Shown: positions 8,693 to 45,378 of the stretch, in pieces
Layout of the letters: each line of letters starts with the position of its first letter
Numbering within the stretch: the stretch's first letter is position 1
Assembly: GCA_030054175.1 (NCBI GenBank)
Contig: JASGCM010000018.1
Location: forward strand, 1 to 64,000
Direction: 5' to 3'
Length of the DNA stretch: 64,000 nucleotides
Source of the DNA: Alphaproteobacteria bacterium
GTDB lineage: Bacteria > Pseudomonadota > Gammaproteobacteria > Burkholderiales > Burkholderiaceae_C
Translations under genes and position numbers: made by a program
The notes under the pieces: generated by a model
Told to the model about the DNA's origin: nothing
Seen by the model: the letters and a program-made list of their open reading frames with translations, nothing else
Database searches by the model: none

Positions 8693-11083
8693 TCAGACCG
8701 TACCCAGGGCCTTGAGCACCCGTTGCGGCGTGAAGGGCTGTGTGGTGACTACTGCGCCCAAAGGCGCCAGCGCATCGTTGACGGCGTTCAACACCGCACC
8801 CGGGGCGCCTGCCGTGCCAGCCTCCCCAGCCCCTTTGGCGCCCAACTCTGAACCTTTGGTTGGGGTCTCGACGTGGCCCACGATGATGTCAGGCATCTCC
8901 GAGGCCATGGGCACCAAATAATCGGCCATGGACCCATTGAGCAATTGACCGTCTTCGTTATAGAGGCACTCTTCAAACAAGGCACCACCGATGCCCTGCA
9001 CCACCCCCCCACGAATCTGCTCATCGACCAGCATGGGGTTGATCACAGTGCCGCAGTCTTCCACGCACCAGTGCTTGAGCAACTTCACGAAACCCGTCTC
9101 GGGGTCGACTTCGACATAAGAGGCTTGAATGCCGTTGGTGAAGGTGAATCCGTATTCACGCGGGGTGTAATGTCGAGTGACGGTCAACTCCGACTGGAAA
9201 TTCATAGGCAGGGTGTCGGGACGGAAATAAGCGACTCGACCGACTTCGTTGAGGGGCAGCTTCACCTCCCCAGTCAACTTGTCCACCACTTGGTTGTTCA
9301 CCACATCCAATGTCGCCGCATCGGCTTGCAAGATGGCCGCAGCAATGGCCAGGATATTGGCTTTGAGTGCTTTGCCCGCCTGCAGCACGGCCTCACCACC
9401 AATGCCTGCCCCACGCGACGCCCAGGTGCCCCCGCCGTAGGGTGTGACCCCGGTGTCACCGGTGATGACCCGAACCCGGTCCACCGACACCCCCACCGCC
9501 TGGGCAGCGATCTGGGTGAAAACGGCCTCGGTGCCCTGCCCTTGCTCGGTCACACTGACCAGGACATTGAGCATGCCCTGAGGATCGAATCGGATGGTCG
9601 CACCGTCTTGGGCGGAAATTCGTGCACCGCCGACACCATAAAAAGCCGGTGAGGGGTTGGTGACTTCGATCATCGCCGCCAATCCGATGCCACGGTAAAT
9701 CCCTTTTTGACGCAAAGCATCCTGCTCGGCACGCAAGGCCTTGTAGTCCATCAACTGCAGCAATTTGTCCAGACATTGCCGATGCGACAATTTTTCATAC
9801 TTGGTCCCCGAGGGGAAGGTGTAGGGATATGCGTCATCGGGAATGATGTTGCGGCGTCTGAATTCGGCCGGATCCATCCCAATGGCACGCGCGGCCTCAT
9901 CGACGATGCCTTCGGTCAAGGCCACGGCAATGGGGTGTCCCACCGCTCGATATTGGCAAGTCACATTCTTGTTGGTGAACACCACATTGAGCTTGGCGCG
10001 GTAGTGTTTGTGCTTGTAGGGTCCCCCGGTCAGGTTGACGACCTGGTTACCCTCAATGCCGCTGGTGCGTGGATACACCGAGTACGGCCCGATGCCCGTC
10101 AGGTCATCCAAATCAAAGCCGATGATGTCACCCTGTTTGGTGCAAGCCAAGCGCACCGTGGCGGTGTGCTCGCGGGCATGGATGTCGGTCAAGAATGACT
10201 CGATTCGATCGGCCATGAATTTGACCGGGCGACGCAACATCACGGACAGAGCGGCGGTGGCCATTTCATCGGCGTAGACGTGCACCTTGATGCCAAAAGA
10301 ACCACCCACATCCTTGCAAATGACGCGCACGCTGGACTCGGGGATGTTCAAGTGGCGCGAAAAGATGTCTTGCATCATATTGGGCGCCTGGGTGGCATGG
10401 TAGACCGTCAATGCATGCTCGGCCGGGTTGTAATCGGCCAAAATCGCACGCGGCTCGTTGGTCACGCCGGTATGGCGGCCAAAGTCATAAGTTTTCTCCA
10501 CAATCACATCGGCCTTGGACCAAGCCTCAGCAAAGCCTTCAGTCTCCAAAGAGCGTGAAAAACAAATGTTGTCACCCAAATCCGGATGGATGACCACATC
10601 ACCCCGCAAAGAGGCCCGCATATCGGTCACGGCCGGGAGTGTTTCAAATTCGGCCACCACATGGTCGAGTGCGTCCTCGGCTTGGCGACGTGTTTCGGCG
10701 ACGATGGCCGCCACGGCCTCGCCTTGCCAGCACACCCGGTCGATCGCCACGGCATACTGCGTGGCCGATTTGATGCCTTTGAGGTGGCCCAGCACCCCCA
10801 CCCAGGGGGTGCAGAACTCGGCGATTGCCGCACCATCGAAACACCCAATGACACCCGGTTGCTGACGCGCAAGACTGAGGTCCAGCGATTTGATGCGAGC
10901 GTGGGCGTGCGGGCTGCGGAAGAACACCACATGGGCCAACCGGGGCACACGCACATCGTCCAGATATGCACCACGGCCTTGAAGCAACTTACGGGCGCCT
11001 GAACGGGGCACCGAGGTCCCGATGTACTTTTCCTGGGTGCGGGCATCGACCGGATTGGATGGGATTTCGGCGCGTGCGTTCAT
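8693..11083 (-). CDS. Xanthine dehydrogenase family, molybdopterin-binding large subunit
   Basis: A 796-residue catalytic subunit of a CoxL/XdhB-type molybdenum hydroxylase, which hydroxylates heterocycles or oxidises aldehydes using water as oxygen source. The domain order is normal: an a/b hammerhead domain at about 20-150, then the molybdopterin-binding domains. The catalytic glutamate is E754 in GAKGAGEAG, and other cofactor segments are GGSFGIK and TEQGQGTEA. The loop that carries the Cu-binding cysteine in CO dehydrogenase (VAYxCSFR) instead reads TCQYRAVGHP here, so CO is not the likely substrate. AAGGAG lies upstream of the ATG. The start overlaps the stop of the iron-sulfur subunit (ATGA), so the subunits are translationally coupled. 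Confidence 0.9.
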   Translation of the reverse strand: MNARAEIPSNPVDARTQEKYIGTSVPRSGARKLLQGRGAYLDDVRVPRLAHVVFFRSPHAHARIKSLDLSLARQQPGVIGCFDGAAIAEFCTPWVGVLGHLKGIKSATQYAVAIDRVCWQGEAVAAIVAETRRQAEDALDHVVAEFETLPAVTDMRASLRGDVVIHPDLGDNICFSRSLETEGFAEAWSKADVIVEKTYDFGRHTGVTNEPRAILADYNPAEHALTVYHATQAPNMMQDIFSRHLNIPESSVRVICKDVGGSFGIKVHVYADEMATAALSVMLRRPVKFMADRIESFLTDIHAREHTATVRLACTKQGDIIGFDLDDLTGIGPYSVYPRTSGIEGNQVVNLTGGPYKHKHYRAKLNVVFTNKNVTCQYRAVGHPIAVALTEGIVDEAARAIGMDPAEFRRRNIIPDDAYPYTFPSGTKYEKLSHRQCLDKLLQLMDYKALRAEQDALRQKGIYRGIGLAAMIEVTNPSPAFYGVGGARISAQDGATIRFDPQGMLNVLVSVTEQGQGTEAVFTQIAAQAVGVSVDRVRVITGDTGVTPYGGGTWASRGAGIGGEAVLQAGKALKANILAIAAAILQADAATLDVVNNQVVDKLTGEVKLPLNEVGRVAYFRPDTLPMNFQSELTVTRHYTPREYGFTFTNGIQASYVEVDPETGFVKLLKHWCVEDCGTVINPMLVDEQIRGGVVQGIGGALFEECLYNEDGQLLNGSMADYLVPMASEMPDIIVGHVETPTKGSELGAKGAGEAGTAGAPGAVLNAVNDALAPLGAVVTTQPFTPQRVLKALGTV

Positions 11084-11586
11084 GCGGTTGCTCCTTGGGT
11101 GATGGGCAGCACTCGCTGCGCCTTCAAAACCGACTCAATGGCGTCGACAATGGCTTGATACCCGGTGCAACGGCAATAGTTGCCCGAAATGAGGTCGCGA
11201 ATTTCTTCACGGTTGGCATCCGGGTGATGACGCAAGATGTCCAATGCGCTGATCAACATGCCCGAAGAACAAAACCCGCATTGAAAAGCGTTGTGCTGTA
11301 AAAATGCCTGTTGCAACACCGCCAGTTGACCGCTGTCTGACAAACCTTCGATGGTTTCCACGGCTTTGCCCTCGACGGCCACACCCAGGGTCAGGCAACC
11401 GCGCACGACTTGGCCATCGACCATGACCTGACACGCTCCGCAAACCCCATGCTCGCAGCCCAGGTGAGAACCCGTCAAGCCCAAATCTTCGCGCAGCATG
11501 TCAATCAAGTGCATTCGCACCGGGACTTCGCGCTGAACCGAAGCGCCGTTTAAAGTGAAAGAGGTGGTGATTTTCTTTTCGATCAT
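11080..11586 (-). CDS. (2Fe-2S)-binding small subunit of molybdenum hydroxylase
   Basis: A 168-residue electron-transfer subunit carrying two [2Fe-2S] clusters. The plant-ferredoxin-type cluster has C44, C49, C52 and C64 (CEHGVCGAC...GC). The second, helical-domain cluster has C103, C106, C138 and C140 (CGFC, CRC). I chose the ATG at 11586 because GGGGAGCG precedes it and it overlaps the stop of the FAD subunit by ATGA; the open frame extends upstream without homology. It passes electrons from the molybdenum centre to the FAD subunit. Confidence 0.93.
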   Translation of the reverse strand: MIEKKITTSFTLNGASVQREVPVRMHLIDMLREDLGLTGSHLGCEHGVCGACQVMVDGQVVRGCLTLGVAVEGKAVETIEGLSDSGQLAVLQQAFLQHNAFQCGFCSSGMLISALDILRHHPDANREEIRDLISGNYCRCTGYQAIVDAIESVLKAQRVLPITQGATA

Positions 11587-12443
11587 GATGCGCTCCCCAT
11601 GGCATTGAGTGCACGACCCAGCAGAACACGAGCCAGGTGAACCTTGGTGGCTGGATCGGCTTGCAGGTCGCCGTTCGGGCTTAAATCCTGAGCCAAAGCC
11701 TGTTGCGCCTTTTGAATGGACGCCGCATCCAGGGCTTGACCTTGCAAAGCGGACATCGCCCGCGTGGCCAGCACGGGGCCATCGCCCATGGCCAAATAAG
11801 CCAACCGAGCTTCTTTGATCTTCGAACCGTTCATGTGCACAGCACAAGCCAAGCCGACCATGGCGTAGTCGCCACGGCGTCGTGACAGCTCGTCAAAGTG
11901 AAAGCGTTGTTCGGTATTCGCCAATGGAAACTCGACCGCCACCAGCATCTCATCCGGTTGCAAGGCGGTTTGATACAAACCCTGAAAATAGTCAGCGATC
12001 GGGATCAGACGTTGGCCGCGAGGGCCTTGAGCCACGATGGTGGCCTCCAAGGCCAAAGCCACAGCGGGGTATTCGGCGGCCGGATCGGCCAAGGCCAGGC
12101 TGCCGCCGATGGTGCCGACGTTGCGAATAGCCAAGTGCGCCACATGCGGCACCGCTTGCGCCAGGAGAGGTACATGGCGCGCCACCAAGTCTGACTTGAG
12201 CAGGGCATGGTGGGTAACCAGAGCACCAATCCGCAGGACTGAGCCATGCACTTGCGTGGTCTTCAGATCCGCGATCCCGCTGATGTCGATGAGCAGGCCT
12301 GGTTGTGCCAAGCGCAGGTTCATCATCGCCATCAGACTTTGGCCGCCCGCAAGCAACTGCGCCGAACCAGCATGCTGGCGGAGTAAATCGATGGCCTCCT
12401 CGACCGAGGTGACCCGGGTGTAATCAAACGCCGCAGCTTTCAT
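11583..12443 (-). CDS. FAD-binding medium subunit of molybdenum hydroxylase
   Basis: A 286-residue subunit of the CoxM/XdhA-type FAD-binding family. Both FAD motifs are present: AGGQSLMAMMNLRLAQP near 31-47 and TIGGSLALADPAAEYP in the middle. It receives electrons from the iron-sulfur subunit and passes them to an acceptor. The ATG at 12443 has AAAGGAG upstream; the extra 13 residues possible before it lack a ribosome-binding site. Gene order FAD, FeS, Mo matches coxMSL. It lies 60 bases after the LivF-type ATPase on the same strand, which suggests that import and hydroxylation of the same compound are linked. Confidence 0.92.
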   Translation of the reverse strand: MKAAAFDYTRVTSVEEAIDLLRQHAGSAQLLAGGQSLMAMMNLRLAQPGLLIDISGIADLKTTQVHGSVLRIGALVTHHALLKSDLVARHVPLLAQAVPHVAHLAIRNVGTIGGSLALADPAAEYPAVALALEATIVAQGPRGQRLIPIADYFQGLYQTALQPDEMLVAVEFPLANTEQRFHFDELSRRRGDYAMVGLACAVHMNGSKIKEARLAYLAMGDGPVLATRAMSALQGQALDAASIQKAQQALAQDLSPNGDLQADPATKVHLARVLLGRALNAMGSAS

Positions 12444-12503
12444 AGATGGCGCTCCTTTCAAACATGGCGCCCCGGGCGACATGCGCGCCAGGGCTACACG
12501 GGG

Positions 12504-35306: not shown

Positions 35307-36086
35307 TCAGGAAAAGACCATTCCACCGTCGATGTGCAGGCTCTGTCCCGTGATACCGCGCGCCGCAGACGAACCCAAAAATACCGCCATTTCAGCGATT
35401 TCAGTCGGCTGCATCAAGCGCCCCAGAGGCACGCGAGTCATCATGGCCTTGACAAATTCATCGACGCTGGCCCCTGCCGCCTGAGCAGCCTGAGCTTTGA
35501 GTTCATCGATCATGTCGGTCTGCACAAAACCGGGGCAAATCGCATTCACAGTCACCTGATGGGTACTGGCCTCCAAGGCCACGCAGCGCGTCAGGCCGAC
35601 CACCGCATGTTTGCTGGTGTTGTAGGCACTTTGGTTACGCGATCCCCATTTGCCGGCTGTCGATGCAATATTGATGATCGAACCGCTGCGGCGCAACTGC
35701 ATGTGCGGTAAACAGGCTTGCATAAAATGCATCACACCAAACAAATTCACGTCGAGCAGTCGCTGAAAGTCTTGCGGGGTGTGCTCCAAAAAGGGGGCTG
35801 CATGGTAGATGCCGGCATTGTTCACCAAAACATCCACCTGACCCCAACGCTGCATGGCCTGACTCACTACCGCCTGGCAGTCGCTTGCCTTGGACACATC
35901 GGCAGCGACGCACAGGGTCTGCTCCGTGCTCAAGCCCAAATCATTGCAGACCGATCTCAAGGGGGCCTCGCGGGTAGCCACCAAAACCACCCGCGCCCCT
36001 TGGCGAGCATAGGCCTGCACCACGGCTCGTCCGATGCCTCGGCTGGCGCCGGTGACGATGGCGACTTGTTCATTCAATGCATTCAT
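35307..36086 (-). CDS. SDR family oxidoreductase, 3-hydroxybutyrate dehydrogenase-like
   Basis: A 259-residue classical SDR with TGASRGIG at 12-19, NNAG at 89-92, and the S142-Y155-K159 triad (IASTAG, YNTSK). The segment VNAICPGFVQTDM and the C-terminal IDGG are normal. It is similar in length and motifs to D-3-hydroxybutyrate dehydrogenases, but substrate assignment is not secure. AAAGGA lies upstream of the ATG. It is the last gene of the leftward operon that begins at the quinone oxidoreductase (40394). Confidence 0.87.
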   Translation of the reverse strand: MNALNEQVAIVTGASRGIGRAVVQAYARQGARVVLVATREAPLRSVCNDLGLSTEQTLCVAADVSKASDCQAVVSQAMQRWGQVDVLVNNAGIYHAAPFLEHTPQDFQRLLDVNLFGVMHFMQACLPHMQLRRSGSIINIASTAGKWGSRNQSAYNTSKHAVVGLTRCVALEASTHQVTVNAICPGFVQTDMIDELKAQAAQAAGASVDEFVKAMMTRVPLGRLMQPTEIAEMAVFLGSSAARGITGQSLHIDGGMVFS

Positions 36087-36113
36087 GAGGGTCCTTTCAT
36101 GCCTGAGTGTGAT

Positions 36114-37049
36114 TCAGGGAGTCATGCGGCGAGACCGCGCCAACCAGGGCCCCAAGAACAAGGGAGCAAAATACATGGGGATCTGTACGATCGCCACGTA
36201 CAAAGCAAATGCGGGTCCTGCGGTGCCGGCAGTAACCACCAGCAACAGCCCCATATTGCGGTTGCCGCTCAACAAGGCCGCCGTGTAGGCTGTGTTGAGT
36301 CCGGCCCGACGACACAAAGCATGTCCAACCGCATGCCAAACCAGGACTGATGTGCAAGCCAGACCCAACAGCTTGAACGCAAAGGGTGGGTCTTGCAGCA
36401 AGATGTTTTGCACCCCCTCCATGACGGCCACCGCAAAAATGACCAACATCACCACATTCATACCAGCCAAATCCTCATCGATCGCACTCAAGCGCTCGCG
36501 ACCAACCTGACGACGAATCAGCGCCGCCAGGGCAAAAGGCAGTGCCACCAACACCAAGACCCGCAGAAAAAAAGTCCATAAATCGACTTCGATGCCGAAT
36601 TGAGGCAGCAACCAGGCCACCATCGCCGTCAAGGTGAGGGGCAAGCCCAAAGTGGCCCACACCGTGGTGACCATGCACAAACTGGCCTCCAGCCCAAGAA
36701 ACATCGCGAACGCGGCGGAAGAACCGATGGGCGGGCCTGCTGCTTGTAAAACCAACAAGACTGTCCATTCAGGTGGAAGACCGACCGCACCAGCCAGGAT
36801 CCACACCAGCAAGGGAGACATCAAGGTCAACCAAAGCACCAAGCCCAAGGGCCATGCGGGTTGGCGCACCCAAGTCCACATCCGATCCCAATCCATGCGC
36901 AGCAAGGCGGCGACCAAGGTACCCACCACCGCCACGGGCAATAAAGGGCGCCATGCGCTGGCCAGGCTGGGCCACAAAATGCCCACAAAGACACCTGCAG
37001 GCAGGGACCAACGCGCCTGTCTACCGAGCCAACGCAGTGCGGTCCTCAC
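36114..37049 (-). CDS. Bile acid:sodium symporter (BASS/SBF-like) family membrane protein
   Basis: A 311-residue inner-membrane protein with about nine to ten hydrophobic segments. Its pattern (GLPPEWTVLLVLQAAGPPIGSS and the late LLSGNRNMGLLLV) is that of the SBF/BASS fold, in which two crossing helices bind Na+ and an organic anion. The start is a GTG overlapping the stop of the Bug gene (GTGA). It may import the organic acid processed by this operon. Subfamily assignment is moderate. Confidence 0.72.
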   Translation of the reverse strand: MRTALRWLGRQARWSLPAGVFVGILWPSLASAWRPLLPVAVVGTLVAALLRMDWDRMWTWVRQPAWPLGLVLWLTLMSPLLVWILAGAVGLPPEWTVLLVLQAAGPPIGSSAAFAMFLGLEASLCMVTTVWATLGLPLTLTAMVAWLLPQFGIEVDLWTFFLRVLVLVALPFALAALIRRQVGRERLSAIDEDLAGMNVVMLVIFAVAVMEGVQNILLQDPPFAFKLLGLACTSVLVWHAVGHALCRRAGLNTAYTAALLSGNRNMGLLLVVTAGTAGPAFALYVAIVQIPMYFAPLFLGPWLARSRRMTP

Positions 37050-38023
37050 TTCTTCTCGATCTTGGCTCGAGCGATCACGTCAGCCCACCGACGGATGTCC
37101 GCCTGCAAAATATCCACCGCCTGTTCTGGCGTGCTGCCTTGTGCGTACAAACTGAGTTCGCTCAAACGAGCCTTCACCTCGGACATGGCCAAAATGGTCT
37201 GCAATTCTTGATTCAATCTCACCACCACCTCACGCGGCGTTTTGGCCGGCACAGCCAAACCGTTCCAAGACGACACATTGAAAGAGGCCAAATTCCCACC
37301 GGCCTCACGCACTGCTGGCACATCGGGTAAAGCGGCACCTCGCTTGTCGCTCAGCACCGCCACAGGACGCAAGGCACCCGATTTGATCTGACTCATGACT
37401 GGGCCCAGGATTTCAACCATGGCATCCAGATTGCCCCCACGCAATGCGGTGATGACTGGAGGAGTGCCATTGAAGGGCACGATTTGAGCCTGCAAACCTG
37501 AGCTGGCCAAAAACAACTCGGCTGCCAAGTTCTGGGTGGTCCCGGCCTGAGGCGTTCCGATGTTGAGCTTGCCAGGATTGTTGCGGCCGTAGTCCAACAA
37601 TTCGGACAAGGACTTGAAACGCCCCCCCTCGGCCACACAAAGCACCAAATCAAAGCTGGCCAACTTGGAGACCGGTGCGAAATCTTTCAAGGTATCAAAA
37701 GGCATTGATTTGAACAGCGATGCGCTGACCGCAGTACCGCTGGAAATCAGCAACATGGTATGACCATCGGAATCCGTCTTGGCCACCAACTCACCGGCCA
37801 CAATCCCGCCGGCGCTGGCGCGGTTGTCGATCACCACCGGTTGACCCAGTGCTTCGGACAATTTCTGTCCGACGGTTCGGGCCGTGATGTCGGCAGCGCC
37901 ACCAGCGGCATTGGGCACCACGATTTTGAGGGGCTTGAAAGGAAAGGTCTGAGCCCGAGACCAAGGTGCAAAGATGGTCGCTCCAGCGGCCCACAAAAGA
38001 CTGCGCCGAGACAACGGTTTCAT
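37046..38023 (-). CDS. Bug/TctC family receptor with twin-arginine signal
   Basis: A 325-residue periplasmic binding protein. The signal SRRSLLWAAGATIFAPWSRA has a twin-arginine motif. Family segments are VPNAAGGAADITART, DNRASAGGIVAGELVAKT, FDTLKDFAPVSKLA and LPDVPAVREAGG. The ATG at 38023 gives a standard signal; 38032 is possible and neither has a clear ribosome-binding site. It is coupled to the carrier gene by a GTGA overlap and follows the tautomerase by two bases. Its ligand is unknown. Confidence 0.87.
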   Translation of the reverse strand: MKPLSRRSLLWAAGATIFAPWSRAQTFPFKPLKIVVPNAAGGAADITARTVGQKLSEALGQPVVIDNRASAGGIVAGELVAKTDSDGHTMLLISSGTAVSASLFKSMPFDTLKDFAPVSKLASFDLVLCVAEGGRFKSLSELLDYGRNNPGKLNIGTPQAGTTQNLAAELFLASSGLQAQIVPFNGTPPVITALRGGNLDAMVEILGPVMSQIKSGALRPVAVLSDKRGAALPDVPAVREAGGNLASFNVSSWNGLAVPAKTPREVVVRLNQELQTILAMSEVKARLSELSLYAQGSTPEQAVDILQADIRRWADVIARAKIEKK

Positions 38024-38025
38024 GA

Positions 38026-38220
38026 TCAACATTCGGGCTTGTCAGACCACAACACCCCGCCGGTGGCCCAATCGTGCTTTTTGATGTCGGTGAAGATGAT
38101 CTCAACCGCTTCGGGTTTGCTGCCCAGAGTCTGCACGGTCGCTTCGGTCAAAGCCTTGGCATAAGCGCGCTTTTGCTCCAGGGTACGGCCCTCGAACAAC
38201 TCAACATGTATGGTCGGCAT
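38026..38220 (-). CDS. 4-oxalocrotonate tautomerase family protein
   Basis: A 64-residue tautomerase. Removal of the start methionine exposes the catalytic Pro1 (PTIHVELFEGR), and Arg11 is retained. Arg39 of canonical 4-OT is a glutamate here, and the Phe50 position is a tryptophan, so the substrate may differ from 2-hydroxymuconate. AAGGAG precedes the ATG at 38220; the much longer open frame upstream is not homologous to anything I recognise. It sits between the serine hydrolase and Bug genes. Confidence 0.88.
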   Translation of the reverse strand: MPTIHVELFEGRTLEQKRAYAKALTEATVQTLGSKPEAVEIIFTDIKKHDWATGGVLWSDKPEC

Positions 38221-38236
38221 GACTGCTCCTTGTGAC

Positions 38237-39391
38237 TCAAATTTGAATGGCGGCATGCACCAGATTACTGACCTGATCGAGTCGCAGGCTGTGCCATGGA
38301 TCAGGCACCCGGGCATTGGTGATGTAGGCGAAAGACAGACCGCTTTGGGGGTCGGCCCAGCAGTAACTGGTGCCCACGCCACCATGTCCGAAGGTTCCTG
38401 GATGTGCCAAAGAGCCCAAACCCCGGATGCCGATGCTGTGTCCACGCAAATGCGGTCCCAGCCCACGGTGCATGGGCATGCCGATGAATTCATCCACCCG
38501 GTCGCCGGTGTAGTTGCGCAAGGCATAAGCCAAAGTGCGTGGCGAGAGCAACTGCACATCCCCCAAACGCCCACCTTGAAGCATCATTTGGTAAAGGGCC
38601 GCCATGCCTCGGGCGGTGCCATAGGCTCCGCCACCGGGCACACCCGCTTCTTGCCACACCCGAGAGGTGCTCTCTGGCCGCAACACCAAACGGCCACCCT
38701 GAGCCGAGTCAGGCTCGTACAGAAACGACATTCGCGGCAATTGGGCTTCGGGCAACCCCAGGAAAATCTCGTCGGCCAAGCCAAGCGGTTGCAGGACCTG
38801 TTCACGCACGACCTGTCGGTAGTCTTGTCCGGTGACCGCTTCAATCACCATGGCCAAGGTCCAATGCGCGGTCAGGCCGTGGTAACTGACCTTGCTGCCG
38901 GCAGGCCATTCAGGCACGAAATCACACACCGCCTGACGAACTCGGGCATGGTCATGCCAAAGCTCAGAAGTCACCTCTAAACCCGGGTAGCCGGCCTGGT
39001 GAGTGATGACTTGAAGCAGCGTGATGTCTTGTTTGCCATGGGCAGCGAATTCGGGCAAATAATCGGTGACTCTGTCGGTGAAGCGCAACAAGCCACGCTC
39101 GTGCAACAGCCACAGGGTAGTTGCGATGATGACCTTGGTGTTGGAGTACAACAGCCACAGGGTGTCGGGTTTCGTGGACTCGGCGCGACCATCTGCGGCC
39201 CCGCCCTGACCCGTACGGGCCTGGCCAAAGCTCATGTCCAGCACCAACTCCCCCCGATAACCTAAAGCGATTTGCGCTCCGGGATAGCGCCCTTGGGCGA
39301 TGTGTTGCTGGATCAAATCAAACAAGGGCTGCAGAGCGCCTTCTCGAACGGGGGCATCGTTCAGTGAGCCTGTGGGCATGGGACGGGTCAT
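38237..39391 (-). CDS. Serine hydrolase, class C beta-lactamase-like (EstB type)
   Basis: A 384-residue protein of the beta-lactamase/penicillin-binding fold. It has the nucleophile S83 in SNTK (S-x-x-K), Y170 in SYHG (the Y-x-N equivalent) and HGG (FGHGGVG) in place of KTG. No signal peptide is seen, so it is probably a cytoplasmic esterase or amidase rather than a beta-lactamase. GGAGG precedes the ATG at 39391; the M at 39403 is less likely. It starts one base after the stop of the quinone oxidoreductase gene. Confidence 0.87.
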   Translation of the reverse strand: MTRPMPTGSLNDAPVREGALQPLFDLIQQHIAQGRYPGAQIALGYRGELVLDMSFGQARTGQGGAADGRAESTKPDTLWLLYSNTKVIIATTLWLLHERGLLRFTDRVTDYLPEFAAHGKQDITLLQVITHQAGYPGLEVTSELWHDHARVRQAVCDFVPEWPAGSKVSYHGLTAHWTLAMVIEAVTGQDYRQVVREQVLQPLGLADEIFLGLPEAQLPRMSFLYEPDSAQGGRLVLRPESTSRVWQEAGVPGGGAYGTARGMAALYQMMLQGGRLGDVQLLSPRTLAYALRNYTGDRVDEFIGMPMHRGLGPHLRGHSIGIRGLGSLAHPGTFGHGGVGTSYCWADPQSGLSFAYITNARVPDPWHSLRLDQVSNLVHAAIQI

Positions 39392-39392
39392 C

Positions 39393-40394
39393 TCAACCTC
39401 CAACTTTCAACATGATTTTGCCAATATGCGCCGATGACTCCATCAGGGAGTGCGCTTGCGCAGCCTCGGCCATGGGATAGACTTTGAAAATATAGGGTTT
39501 GACCGTCCCCTGAGCCAGCAGGGGCCAGACCTGTTGATGAAGATTTTGCGCCATGGCCGCCTTGTCGGCTGCACTGCGCGGGCGCAGGGTCGAACCGGTG
39601 TAGGTCAACCGTTTGGCCATCAGTTGAACCCAATCCACCTCGGCTTTGGAAGACTCCAGGAAGGCGATTTGAACCAAGCGGCCGTCCATGGCCAGCATGC
39701 GCAAATTGCGTTGGATATAGGGCCCGCCCACCATGTCCAGAATCAGGTTCAGGCCCTGCTTGCCCGTGATCTCCTGGACCACCTCAACGAAATCCTGACT
39801 CTTGTAGTTGATGGCGTGGTCGGCGCCGGCGGCGCGACAAGCCTGCGCCTTGTCTTCGCTGCCCACCGTGCAAAACACTTCGACACCCCAGGCATGGGCG
39901 AGTTGGATGGCTGTCAAACCGATGCCCGATGACCCGCCATGAACCAAAAAGCGCTCACCTTTTTTCAAACGACCGCGATCAAACACATTGGTCCAGACGG
40001 TGAAGAAGTTTTCCGGTAAAGCCGCAGCCTGCAACATGTCGTAGCCTTGCGGGATCGGCAAGGCCTGACCCTCTGGCACGCAACAGTATTCGGCATAGCC
40101 CCCCCCGTTGGCCAAGGCGCACAAACGGTCACCCAATTTCCACCGCTTCACGCCGGCCCCGAGAGCCACCACCTCGCCCGAAATTTCCAATCCCATGATC
40201 GGGGAGGCGCCAGGTGGGGGCGGATAGCGACCACTGCGCTGGCTGCAATCGGGGCGATTGACGCCAGCATATGCGACCTTGACCAAAACTTCGCCGGCGG
40301 CCGGACTCGGCACCGGACAGGTCTTCAACTGGATGACCTCGGGGCCGCCGCCGGCACCATGGTCCAGGAAATTCATTTCTGTGGGCAAACTCAT
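39393..40394 (-). CDS. NAD(P)H-quinone oxidoreductase, zinc-free MDR family (PIG3-like)
   Basis: A 333-residue medium-chain dehydrogenase/reductase without the zinc-binding cysteines. YAGVNRPDCSQRSGRYPPPPGAS and ALPENFFTVWTNVF are typical of the TP53I3/PIG3-type quinone oxidoreductases, and the NADPH-binding HGGSSGIGLTAIQLA loop lies mid-protein. It reduces quinones or enals with NADPH in the cytoplasm. GAGAG precedes the ATG. It is the first gene of the leftward operon and divergent from the dehydratase-amidase gene, with an inverted repeat between them. Confidence 0.88.
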   Translation of the reverse strand: MSLPTEMNFLDHGAGGGPEVIQLKTCPVPSPAAGEVLVKVAYAGVNRPDCSQRSGRYPPPPGASPIMGLEISGEVVALGAGVKRWKLGDRLCALANGGGYAEYCCVPEGQALPIPQGYDMLQAAALPENFFTVWTNVFDRGRLKKGERFLVHGGSSGIGLTAIQLAHAWGVEVFCTVGSEDKAQACRAAGADHAINYKSQDFVEVVQEITGKQGLNLILDMVGGPYIQRNLRMLAMDGRLVQIAFLESSKAEVDWVQLMAKRLTYTGSTLRPRSAADKAAMAQNLHQQVWPLLAQGTVKPYIFKVYPMAEAAQAHSLMESSAHIGKIMLKVGG

Positions 40395-40407
40395 GCGACT
40401 CTCTCAG

Positions 40408-40420
40408 GTATTTCAAATAC
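40408..40420. promoter_or_regulatory. Inverted repeat GTATTT-C-AAATAC between divergent operons
   Basis: A perfect six-base palindrome with a one-base centre lies 14 bases upstream of the quinone oxidoreductase start, close to a TATATT-like -10 on the minus strand (40426-40431). It may be an operator for that operon. No regulator gene is adjacent. Confidence 0.35.
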
Positions 40421-40508
40421 GTCAGAATATACAACTGTTTGACTTGACAAGTACCATCCGGGTTGTCATGTCAGACACACCCATCCGTCAATTTTCAAAG
40501 GCATCGTC

Positions 40509-41969
40509 ATGAGCTTCAATCCTCAAGCCCACCCCTGGGGCGATTGGAAACCCAACAGCAACCACACCGCCGTGACCCGGGAATGGTCGTTTGAATCGTT
40601 TGGACTGGCCATGGTCTTTTTGAATCGGGTGGCCGATATCGCCCATGCCCACGATCACCACCCTGACATCCGCAATGTTTACAACCGGGTGCAACTCACC
40701 CTCAGTACCCACGATGCCGGCGGACTGACGGAACGCGATGCCCGACTGGCCCAGGCCATCGATGCCTTGCTGCTCACCCCCAGCGCCCCCTCCGGCCCGA
40801 CTGTGTCAGAACAGGCCCGCTGCTTCATCCCTTACCCCACGGTCTTGGTATCACACCGAAGCACAGGCCCCTTGTCGGGGCTGACTTTTGCCGCCAAAGA
40901 CCTCTTTCACGTGGCGGGTTACCCCACCGGGGGGGGCCAGCCTTTCGTACTGGCACGCTCGGGCATCAAATCCCGCAACGCGGTCACAGTACAGAAACTG
41001 CTCGACGCCGGCGCTCGATTTGTCGGCAAGGTCGTGACCGATGAGCTCGCCTTTTCCATGAACGGTCAAAACGCCCACTTTGGCAATCCCGTGAATGGCG
41101 CCGCCCCTGATCGCATCACCGGCGGATCTTCCTCGGGTTCGGCATCGGCCGTATCGAATAGCCTGTGTGACTTTGCCCTGGGCACCGATACCGGCGGCTC
41201 GGTGCGCGCACCGGCCAACCATTGCGGCTTATATGGCTTGCGCCCGACCCACGGTCGGGTCAGTTTGGAAGGTGCACTCGATCTATCACCCTCGTTTGAC
41301 ACCTGTGGCTGGTTCACGCGCGATATCGGCACCTTCTCCCGGGTGGCCGATGTCTTGTTGGGTGCAGACGCCCAGTCACTGCCCAACCGGATTCGCTTGC
41401 TGATGCCCACCGACATTTGGGGCTTGCTTCACGCCGATGTACGGACCGCCTTGGAGCCAGCCTTGGGGCGTCTCACCCGCGCCCATGGTCAACCCCAAGC
41501 CCTGGACGGATTCTTTGGTGACTTCGACGCCCTCTATTGGGCTTTTCGCTTCATTCAAGGACGCGAGGCCTGGGCCACCGATGGCGACTTGATCAGCCGT
41601 TACCAACCCCCTTTGGGCCCCAGCGTCAAAGAGCGTTTTGAGTGGTCGCGTAAAGTCACCGATGAGCAAGTCAGCCAATCCTGGCTCATCCGCAGCGAAC
41701 TCACGCAACGGCTCTCCGACCTCTTGGGTGACGACGGCGTGTTGGTCATGCCCACCATGCCTGACGCCGCACCGCTGATCAGCCAGCCCGAATCCGAGTT
41801 GGAAAATTACCGCAACAGTGCCGTTCGCATGCTCTGCGTCTCGGGATTGACCGGATTACCACAACTGAGTATGCCCCTGGCCCAGCGCCACGGCGCACCT
41901 TTGGGCCTGTCCTTGCTGGGTCCCAAGGGTCGCGATCGGAGCCTGATCCGACTGGCCGAGGCCCTCTGA
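40509..41969 (+). CDS. Fusion: pterin-4a-carbinolamine dehydratase domain + amidase domain
   Basis: A 486-residue single frame with two enzyme domains. Residues 1-87 are a complete pterin-4a-carbinolamine dehydratase: H46-x3-H50-H51-P52, Y58, H68 and D77 fit the family spacing, with the usual S-THDAGGLT segment. This enzyme recycles the oxidised cofactor of phenylalanine hydroxylase. Residues about 105-486 are an amidase-signature enzyme with catalytic K130 (FAAKDLF), GGSSSGSA at 205-212 (cis-Ser S207) and nucleophile S231 (DTGGS). The linker 88-104 is short and proline/serine-rich. AAAGG precedes the ATG; a GTG near residue 99 has no ribosome-binding site. I know of no described role for this combination. 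No phenylalanine hydroxylase gene is nearby. Confidence 0.85.
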   Translation: MSFNPQAHPWGDWKPNSNHTAVTREWSFESFGLAMVFLNRVADIAHAHDHHPDIRNVYNRVQLTLSTHDAGGLTERDARLAQAIDALLLTPSAPSGPTVSEQARCFIPYPTVLVSHRSTGPLSGLTFAAKDLFHVAGYPTGGGQPFVLARSGIKSRNAVTVQKLLDAGARFVGKVVTDELAFSMNGQNAHFGNPVNGAAPDRITGGSSSGSASAVSNSLCDFALGTDTGGSVRAPANHCGLYGLRPTHGRVSLEGALDLSPSFDTCGWFTRDIGTFSRVADVLLGADAQSLPNRIRLLMPTDIWGLLHADVRTALEPALGRLTRAHGQPQALDGFFGDFDALYWAFRFIQGREAWATDGDLISRYQPPLGPSVKERFEWSRKVTDEQVSQSWLIRSELTQRLSDLLGDDGVLVMPTMPDAAPLISQPESELENYRNSAVRMLCVSGLTGLPQLSMPLAQRHGAPLGLSLLGPKGRDRSLIRLAEAL

Positions 41970-42012: not shown

Positions 42013-42270
42013 ATGACTAGAGACGGCAAAACCCAGATCAGCAGCGACGGCTTGCGTTACAAGTCGCGCACCGGCGGCTCCCCCTTCGGCGAGCGGGGCC
42101 AAACAGGCGCCACCATGAGCTGCTTCAAGTGCGGGGTTCACAAGCCCCGCGCCTATGGCTCTTACAAGCGTTTGGCCGGCACCCTCATGTTCGCATGCTA
42201 TGACTGTTACCCGCCCAAGGACAAAGACACCAAAGCCGCTGAACCCAAGGCCGACGCCAAGTCCTCTTGA
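42013..42270 (+). CDS. Small zinc-ribbon-like protein (85 aa)
   Basis: A small basic protein with two CxxC pairs (CFKC and CYDC, residues about 37-67), which suggests one structural zinc. The N-terminus includes SRTGGSPFGERG and the C-terminus is a lysine/alanine-rich tail. I recognise no defined function; small proteins of this look are common in Burkholderiales and may bind nucleic acid or protein. It follows the dehydratase-amidase gene by 43 bases on the same strand. Confidence 0.65.
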   Translation: MTRDGKTQISSDGLRYKSRTGGSPFGERGQTGATMSCFKCGVHKPRAYGSYKRLAGTLMFACYDCYPPKDKDTKAAEPKADAKSS

Positions 42271-43126: not shown

Positions 43127-44164
43127 TCAGCCACGAACCTCATATACCCCCAATTTGCGATGCAAGGGGGACTCGTCAGCCATAAAGACAAAGCTGGGCG
43201 CATCTGGTCGCGCGTTGCTCAGGCTCACCGACTCGTAACCAGGGGTGCAACTGGTGTCGGCTTCAATCAAATCAAACCCGGCCCCGGCGCACTGCACGCG
43301 TACCGCTCCCTCGACCACGTGGAACACCTGTGCCGGTGAGCGAGCCGGCAAACGCAAGGTCTGTCCCGGTCTGAGCATGAGGGCATAAAACCCCAGCACG
43401 TTCTCGACATCGGCGCCGGTTTGCGGATTCACATAAGTGATTTGGACATGCTCCAAAGTCGGCTCGTCTGCCGCCAAATCCAACAAGGCCGCTTTGACCT
43501 CTGCCCAAGGGTAGCGCAACATCGGATAGTCTTTGTGACCGCGCACAAAAGCCGGCGTCGGCAAAACTCCACCATGCGCGTGCCGACGGTCACCCTGTCC
43601 CGGCACCACATCCTGTCGAGTTCCGTTGACATGGTATGACACCTCGGCATAGAACATCAGCGGCAAATCCAGCACATCCAACCACACCACTGGGTCAGAG
43701 CCATCATGTCCATGCTCGTGCCAAAGTCCCGTGGGAGTGAGGATCAAATCGCCACGACTCATGGGGCATTTTTCGCCATCGACCGTGGTGTAAGCGCCCT
43801 CACCTTCCACGATCATGCGCACTGCATTGGGCGTGTGTCTGTGCGATGGCGCCCATTCACCCGGGAGCAGCAATTGCATGCCCAGGTACATGGCTGCGCT
43901 GGCTTGCATTTTGTCCAGTCCGTGACCAGGGTTGGCCAACACCAGCACGCGGCGCTCGGCCTTTTCAATCGGCGTCAATTCGCCAGCTCGCAACAACAGA
44001 GGCCGAATGCTTTGATAGGGCCAATGGGTGGGACGGGTCTGACGGGTCGGCACCCTGGGCGGCAAGACCCCTCGCAAGCTGGGCCACAAGGGCACCAAGT
44101 TCTGACGCCGCATTTCCTCGACGTATTCGACGGGCAAATCTTCCAGTCTTCCCAAATCGTTCAT
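43127..44164 (-). CDS. Gentisate 1,2-dioxygenase
   Basis: A 345-residue double-cupin ring-cleaving dioxygenase. The iron ligands are H108 and H110 (SHRHTPNAVR) plus a later histidine in the GLWHEHGH region. Long stretches such as LWPSLRGVLPP, LTPIEKAERRVLVLANPG and YLGMQLLLPGEWAP match the family closely. It opens gentisate to maleylpyruvate with O2. The ATG at 44164 overlaps the hydroxylase stop (ATGA), so the two are coupled. Genes for maleylpyruvate isomerase and fumarylpyruvate hydrolase are not adjacent in this window. Confidence 0.93.
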   Translation of the reverse strand: MNDLGRLEDLPVEYVEEMRRQNLVPLWPSLRGVLPPRVPTRQTRPTHWPYQSIRPLLLRAGELTPIEKAERRVLVLANPGHGLDKMQASAAMYLGMQLLLPGEWAPSHRHTPNAVRMIVEGEGAYTTVDGEKCPMSRGDLILTPTGLWHEHGHDGSDPVVWLDVLDLPLMFYAEVSYHVNGTRQDVVPGQGDRRHAHGGVLPTPAFVRGHKDYPMLRYPWAEVKAALLDLAADEPTLEHVQITYVNPQTGADVENVLGFYALMLRPGQTLRLPARSPAQVFHVVEGAVRVQCAGAGFDLIEADTSCTPGYESVSLSNARPDAPSFVFMADESPLHRKLGVYEVRG

Positions 44165-45378
44165 GATCGGTCTCCATAGCCGGCGGCTTGCAGGCAATTG
44201 TCCACGTTCCAGCCGTACAGCCACTCCATCGCATCATAAAAGCGCTCGGGCGGACGTCCCCGCCACAAGTCGTTGCGCACCAGTCGTTCGACCCCTTTGG
44301 CGTGATAAAGGCGCCCCATCTCTCTGCTGGAGAGCACGATGCGGGCGGTGCGCCCAATTCGTGCCTTCTGGTACATGTCCAGCGCACGCGTCCAATCCTG
44401 TCCTGTGACTCGCAGTGCTTCGCCCAAGGTCACGGCGTCTTCCATGGCCATACAAGCGCCTTGGGCCATGTACTGGGTCGTGGGGTGAGCGGCATCGCCG
44501 AGCAAAGTCACCCGGCCATAAGTCCATTGACCAATCGGGTCGCGGTCTGCCGTCGCCCAACGACGCCAACTCTTGGGCAAATCAATCAGCTGACGTGCTT
44601 TGGGGCAAATGCCCTGAAAGTAGCTTTGCACTTCCTCTTTGCTGCCATCCTTCACGCCCCACTCCTCTTGCTCACGGCTGTGAAAGGTCACCACCACGTT
44701 GTATTGCTCACCACCACGCAGGGGGTAATGCACCAAATGGCAGTTTGGACCGACCCAGATGCTGGCAGCATTCCATTGCAATTCGGCGGGGAAGTCCTTT
44801 TTCTCGACCACCGCCCGATAGACCACATGCCCCGTGACCCGCGCCGGATCACCCACATACTGATCTCGAACCACCGACTTCACCCCATCGGCACCAATCA
44901 AGGCGATCCCTTGGTGGCTCTGTCCTTGATGGTCATGCACTGTCACGCCATGCTCACCTTGTTCTATGCGCACCGCCCGGGTGTCGGTCAAGCATTCAAT
45001 TCGGCCACTGGCCTGCGCCCCCTCGAGCAAGGACAAATGCACGTCCGCTCGATGGATCACCGCATAGGGGTTGCCAAAGCGCTGACGGAACGCCTCACCC
45101 GTGGGGATGCTTCCAATCTGGTATTCATTCAATGCATCATGCATCACCATGTAGTCGGTATACACCGCACGCGCGTGGGCCTGTTTTCCGATGCCCAAGG
45201 CATCGAAAGCATGAAACGCATTCGGCCCCAACTGTATGCCCGCGCCGATTTCACCCAACTCGGGGGCCTGTTCCAAGACCTTGATCTGATAGCCCTGACG
45301 CACCAAAGCCAAAGCCGCCGCCAGGCCGCCAATGCCTCCGCCGGCAACCAACACCGGTAATTTTTGTTCTACCAACAT
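44161..45378 (-). CDS. 3-hydroxybenzoate 6-hydroxylase (FAD monooxygenase)
   Basis: A 405-residue class A flavoprotein hydroxylase. It has GGGIGG at 13-18, the DG motif GADGVKSVVRD, and GDAAHPTTQYMAQGA. ELGEIGAGIQLGPNAFHAFD and RFGNPYAVIHRADVHLSL are characteristic of 3-hydroxybenzoate 6-hydroxylases. It makes gentisate with NADH and O2, and is followed in overlap by gentisate dioxygenase. AAAGGA precedes the ATG. Expression is probably controlled at the promoter/palindrome at 45395-45436. A salicylate 5-hydroxylase role is excluded by the enzyme class. Confidence 0.88.
   Translation of the reverse strand: MLVEQKLPVLVAGGGIGGLAAALALVRQGYQIKVLEQAPELGEIGAGIQLGPNAFHAFDALGIGKQAHARAVYTDYMVMHDALNEYQIGSIPTGEAFRQRFGNPYAVIHRADVHLSLLEGAQASGRIECLTDTRAVRIEQGEHGVTVHDHQGQSHQGIALIGADGVKSVVRDQYVGDPARVTGHVVYRAVVEKKDFPAELQWNAASIWVGPNCHLVHYPLRGGEQYNVVVTFHSREQEEWGVKDGSKEEVQSYFQGICPKARQLIDLPKSWRRWATADRDPIGQWTYGRVTLLGDAAHPTTQYMAQGACMAMEDAVTLGEALRVTGQDWTRALDMYQKARIGRTARIVLSSREMGRLYHAKGVERLVRNDLWRGRPPERFYDAMEWLYGWNVDNCLQAAGYGDRS

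Follow-up and report, generated by a model that had tools for sequence, protein, structure and literature searches.

A pterin-4a-carbinolamine dehydratase-like domain joined in frame to an amidase-signature enzyme, and the partners of this dehydratase across a bacterial genus

Pterin-4a-carbinolamine dehydratases (PCD; PF01329, COG2154) form the family of PhhB and DCoH, whose active site follows the pattern H/E/D/K-x3-HH-P, then a tyrosine, a histidine and an aspartate. DCoH also dimerises HNF-1, a role named in the titles of PDB entries. To our knowledge, the role of bacterial PCDs in the absence of phenylalanine hydroxylase is largely open. PMC3223725 assigns PCD (COG2154) a role in molybdenum-cofactor metabolism. 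Amidases of the PRK08310 type (NF006169, within PF01425) are standalone proteins of about 395 aa in the relatives of the gene studied here. What does a dehydratase do without its textbook partner? Relatives that keep PCD and amidase apart, or that join PCD to something else, would offer a clue. Here we describe a gene in which the two families meet in one reading frame, and the company that PCD keeps in related genomes.

One frame, two domains

We analysed a window of 64,000 nt (JASGCM010000018.1:1-64,000, assembly GCA_030054175.1), in whose numbering all coordinates are given unless a congener locus is named. The host genome is a draft of 39 contigs with 4.91% contamination, probably that of a freshwater-type bacterium of the genus Limnohabitans. 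The composite gene is built as follows.

40509..41969, plus strand: fusion gene, ATG at 40509 to TGA at 41969, 486 aa without internal stop
40542..40769, plus strand: PCD domain (PF01329), residues 12-87, sole PF01329 match in the host genome
40770..40808, plus strand: linker, residues 88-100, with an in-frame GTG at 40803-40805
40809..41966, plus strand: amidase-signature domain of the PRK08310 type, residues 101-486, K130-S207-S231 (Pfam, NCBIfam, conserved columns, fold)

As sequence, the fusion of PCD and amidase-signature domain is real: the single uninterrupted frame claimed in the preliminary description was recovered with correct coordinates and strand, and both domains exceed their Pfam cut-offs. 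The ten catalytic residues named there (H46, H50, H51, P52, Y58, H68, D77, K130, S207 and S231) are all present at the positions given, so that both catalytic sets are complete.

The N-terminal domain scores 88.0 bits against PF01329 (gathering cut-off 26), carries the active-site pattern and keeps 14/14 of the columns whose conservation across 75 congener PCDs is 90% or higher. Modelled alone it reaches a pLDDT of 89.2, and its nearest PDB folds are DCoH/PCD structures, among them the complex of DCoH with HNF-1 and a RuBisCO assembly factor that resembles PCD. In Pfam score, motif and fold it is thus alike to its family. It differs by its C-terminal amidase, by belonging to a genus without phenylalanine hydroxylase and by lacking the first family helix: the match covers profile positions 17-91 only, and the model has no helix before residue 31. 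It also falls below the NCBIfam equivalog cut-offs for 4a-hydroxytetrahydrobiopterin dehydratase (PRK00823 series; 86.6/108, 86.4/146 and 69.7/80, among the matches listed, the best 25 of 31 families). A PCD from one congener (L199) is likewise under the cut-off in the five families shown, and that from another (L175) scores 108.0 against a cut-off of 108. Because the first helix is missing and the scores lie below the listed equivalog cut-offs, the domain is, as judged from its sequence, best termed PCD-like pending an assay.

The amidase half matches PRK08310 nearly end to end (residues 101-485 against profile positions 5-389 of 395; 536.9 bits, cut-off 391), and its best PF01425 stretch, residues 117-289, scores 205.1 bits (cut-off 27). 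It keeps 93/94 of the columns conserved in at least 27/29 aligned relatives, and K130, S207 and S231, the Ser-cisSer-Lys triad in the GGSSSGS region, are present in 29/29 of these. It departs from its PRK08310 relatives in the extra N-terminal PCD domain. In a model of the full-length protein the amidase half is confident and its nearest solved folds are amidases; the PCD half is poor (pLDDT below 60 throughout residues 1-100), perhaps the effect of a mixed alignment misplacing the PCD rows.

How widespread is this architecture? The preliminary description had proposed conservation across the family as a check, and this was not borne out: in 200 family genomes searched with the whole protein, relatives match only the amidase part among the matches listed. 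Ten of 84 genus genomes matched at E ≤ 1e-45 (the host included), 45 of 399 order genomes at E ≤ 1e-70 and 45 of 398 phylum genomes at E ≤ 1e-45; in each of these searches the fusion was found only in its own genome among the matches listed, the family, order and phylum draws overlapping. By tblastn, no PCD was detected in 99 loci taken from the searches of the family and of named genomes, in 70 named amidase loci, or in nine congener amidase loci and longer stretches surrounding several of these; the flanks covered were often just 1.5 kb. Eight matches with early starts (L033, L036, L065, G190, G339, G725, G586 and G436) were considered as hidden fusions and rejected, no PCD being detected by tblastn; the G190 match, from the family search, starts at residue 23. 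In other genera some PCDs lie within long open frames, and the idea that these mark further fusions was likewise rejected: 9 of 20 fetched were scanned with Pfam, PCD was the only domain in 9/9, and these are therefore open GC-rich frames. Eleven plasmid records align over more than 80% of the query, from residue 98 or later among the matches listed; viral contigs held no relative of the fusion. The literature searched, with most subscription papers outside it, contained no report of a PCD-amidase fusion. The gene is a new combination of two known domain families, so far from a single genome, and may be private to its host.

The locus and the origin of the PCD half

The gene stands between the following neighbours.

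35307..39403, minus strand: SDR, SBF transporter, TctC receptor and beta-lactamase-fold esterase genes, with a 4-OT tautomerase (block syntenic with relatives)
39393..40394, minus strand: PIG3-type quinone oxidoreductase (Pfam, NCBIfam, synteny)
40395..40508, no strand: divergent spacer of 114 bp from the PIG3-type gene to the fusion (synteny comparison)
42013..42270, plus strand: 85-aa small protein, no Pfam match; found downstream of the standalone amidase in congeners G217 and G234

In G217 and G234, the two nearest relatives that share synteny with the window, a counterpart of the 85-aa protein (95% and 91% identity, respectively) directly follows an amidase 67% identical to that of the fusion; the G234 amidase is split over two frames. 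Relatives of the small protein occur in 78/84 genus genomes, often in multiple copies. Both congeners keep the PIG3-esterase-TctC order, which on the shorter G234 contig is traceable only to TctC, beyond some 7.2-7.5 kb of other genes that include a cupin gene, a branched-chain-type ABC transporter and an oxidoreductase. In the window, PCD and the 114-bp spacer stand in place of these 7.2-7.5 kb. Further along, a gentisate-dioxygenase-like gene, which is under its NCBIfam cut-off, and a 3-hydroxybenzoate 6-monooxygenase gene adjoin the fusion (43127-45378, minus strand).

The PCD of G217 and G234 lies elsewhere in the genome, where it makes up the C-terminal part of a frame that begins with a phosphatase; the host genome lacks a counterpart of the phosphatase (best match 29%, E 2e-5). 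In a tree of 76 PCD domains the fusion PCD groups with the eight phosphatase-PCD rows (support 98/96), and it shares HHP[DE]I and TL[TS]THD with most of them. Its branch is long (0.94; highest identity to any congener 47% in the tree alignment), which makes the placement less sure. Constraining it to either of two amidase-paired groups is rejected (p-AU 0.023 and 0.0205); a third such group, two rows near ppk, is not rejected (p-AU 0.067), all groups having been picked after the tree was seen. Because of the grouping with phosphatase-PCD rows, the simplest history seems to be that the domain switched partner from phosphatase to amidase. In the congener phosphatase-PCD proteins (PF01451 and PF01329) PCD is also fused, and in the one scanned it also lacks the first helix. 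These proteins hold the closest PCD branch, yet there the domain is C-terminal and its partner is a low-molecular-weight phosphatase.

Partners of PCD across the genus

PF01329 is found in 80/84 genus genomes. We fetched PCD neighbourhoods from 75 of 79 matching congeners (all but G203, G215, G224 and G249). PCD stands alone in 42 of these loci, is directly followed by an amidase gene in 18, forms phosphatase-PCD in eight and PCD-DUF4440/SnoaL in seven. Within the two fusion groups, L199 and L175 were typed by Pfam scan and the other members by motif, tblastn and frame. The three partnered arrangements are represented by these loci, in locus numbering.

L150, 6866-8530: PCD gene and PRK07056-type amidase gene as a pair (17 further congener loci)
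L199, 4565-5296: low-molecular-weight tyrosine phosphatase-PCD in one frame, by Pfam (L141, L142, L156, L197, L206, L209 and L212 by motif)
L175, 4343-5062: PCD with a C-terminal DUF4440/SnoaL-like domain, by Pfam (also L157, L160, L173, L174, L177 and L194)

One branch of solo PCDs (L145, L146, L214 and others) lies near genes that we take to be photolyase-like, MerR-like and DUF2237-like, a neighbourhood that resembles light-response regulons. COG4319 is an NTF2/SnoaL-type family. The PCD-DUF4440/SnoaL fusion would independently support it as a folate or pterin enzyme, a suspicion under which COG4319 is listed in PMC3223725.

In the 18 paired loci PCD has a gene of its own, immediately upstream of the amidase gene and on the same strand, with -7 to 162 nt between the aligned ends; the L219 locus is cut by a contig end. 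These 18 are all the amidases that tblastn detected in 744,662 bases of congener loci, and each lies just behind PCD. The two amidases examined are of the PRK07056 type, not PRK08310. Three or more settings can be told apart for the pairs, which follow an aldolase-isomerase-PIG3 set, a TctC receptor, or ppk with a phosphohistidine-phosphatase-like gene (the names of these last two genes being provisional readings of their sequences). In the TctC and PIG3 settings, among the loci listed, a HAD-family hydrolase gene lies beyond the amidase in convergent orientation. The PIG3-type gene of the window also has counterparts upstream of the pairs in 7/75 congener loci (65-69% identity). On the PCD tree the pairs need one or two origins.

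As in the fusion, PCD in the pairs comes directly ahead of an amidase-signature enzyme on one strand. There, by contrast, the two are separate genes, the amidase is 30% and 37% identical to that of the fusion (two loci measured) and PCD belongs to another branch. With the fusion counted, PCD has thus come together with amidases two or more times in the genus, and with different subfamilies. That the pairing extends to other genera was rejected: a search with the paired amidase as query matched 46/250 family genomes, and the 30 loci kept held no PCD; L233, L236 and L237 among them are unpaired copies from this genus.

The preliminary description had noted that no hydroxylase is nearby, and this extends beyond the locus: phenylalanine hydroxylase (PF00351) is found neither in the host genome (0/1) nor in the genus (0/84 genomes) in a search that detected it in Caulobacter among 14 control genomes. 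The PhhAB-type arrangement, with PF00351 in the same genome, is hence absent, and the PCD half therefore cannot serve phenylalanine hydroxylase. With PCD in most of its genomes, three fusion partners and the amidase pairs, the genus offers defined pairs of genes, and one single gene, on which the role of PCD could be tested. The genus-wide pairing and the changes of partner are in our view more interesting than the single fusion gene.

What the joining may mean

We lean, with modest confidence, towards a recent composite, bifunctional gene that keeps both active sites, in which a hydroxylase-independent PCD has swapped partners and the amidase acts on a small amide. The lineage's single PCD, in sister species the C-terminal half of phosphatase-PCD, would have lost its phosphatase partner and become fused, in frame, to the start of a PRK08310-type amidase already resident there, as the DNA separating this amidase from the PIG3-type gene was replaced. 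The resulting enzyme would be bifunctional, with both active sites retained. Its PCD half would be an active dehydratase, the host's only PCD activity, working independently of phenylalanine hydroxylase. The leading candidate for its role is the metabolism of the molybdenum cofactor or of another pterin, and the amidase half would hydrolyse a small amide. The window also encodes the large and FAD subunits of a molybdopterin dehydrogenase (8693-12482, minus strand), a possible client of the cofactor role proposed for PCD. The two activities would probably serve one pathway or be jointly needed, because in congeners PCD also pairs with amidases of a different subfamily; whether a single pathway takes in both halves is, given that pairing, about evenly balanced. 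Should both halves act on one substrate, the chemistry of the amidase would point to the substrate of PCD.

Does the pairing reflect function at all? The repeated joining favours a functional link without proving it, given that PCD takes other partners too, and such swapping among phosphatase, DUF4440 and amidase could just as well indicate that the partner does not matter. On that account PCD, small and stable, would tolerate any partner; the amidase merely happened to lie downstream and the halves work independently. We regard this as the less likely course, if a serious one. It is consistent with the fusion of PCD to three unrelated partners in one genus (phosphatase in eight loci, DUF4440/SnoaL in seven, amidase in the window), with a rearrangement that falls in the window exactly between PIG3 and amidase, and with the family, order and phylum searches, which list no related fusion in other genomes. 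Against it, the pairing of PCD with amidases of another subfamily in 18/75 loci, one or two origins as these may be, would make a second amidase an odd coincidence.

A bolder proposal, which we consider unlikely, is that PCD and an amidase-signature enzyme form a two-enzyme module, so far unrecognised in the genus, for the processing of pterins or some other N-heterocyclic amide. One half would dehydrate the carbinolamine and the other cut a ring or side-chain amide. The fusion would be the covalent version of the module, arrived at a second time with an amidase from an unrelated subfamily. If true, this would give bacterial PCD a role without phenylalanine hydroxylase. More doubtful still is that PCD is catalytically idle and oligomerises the amidase, by analogy with DCoH and HNF-1. 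The nearest folds, with the HNF-1 complex and the RuBisCO assembly factor among them, are in keeping with such a part, but all 14 conserved PCD columns are kept, active-site histidines included, in a domain otherwise at most 47% identical to its congeners, and it is the only PCD match in the host genome.

To return to the composite gene that we favour, the fusion is on this reading genuine and probably recent. Its in-frame GTG (codon 99, 40803) lies near the start position of standalone amidase relatives. The preliminary description had named, as signs against a true fusion, homologues split into two genes together with a ribosome-binding site for a separate amidase or a base lost at the junction. 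The first stands, in that relatives match the amidase part only; the others do not. Shine-Dalgarno strength does not discriminate, at the GTG (-1.7 kcal/mol, equalled by 67% of 2000 random places) or at the ATG at 40509 (-3.2 kcal/mol, 31% of 2000), and no trace of a lost base was seen; repeats at the junction are short and chance-like. The two alternative frames contain no stop for 37 and 90 codons beyond residue 88, and a one-base sequencing slip would therefore not leave a normally ended PCD gene. That an assembly or sequencing error joined two adjacent genes is highly improbable: the fusion is known from one draft genome, relatives carry the two genes apart and a substituted stop codon could still hide in the linker, but neither shifted frame has a stop near the junction, the host genome retains no separate PCD, and GC content per codon position is near-equal on both sides (PCD 0.64/0.43/0.71, amidase 0.63/0.51/0.71).
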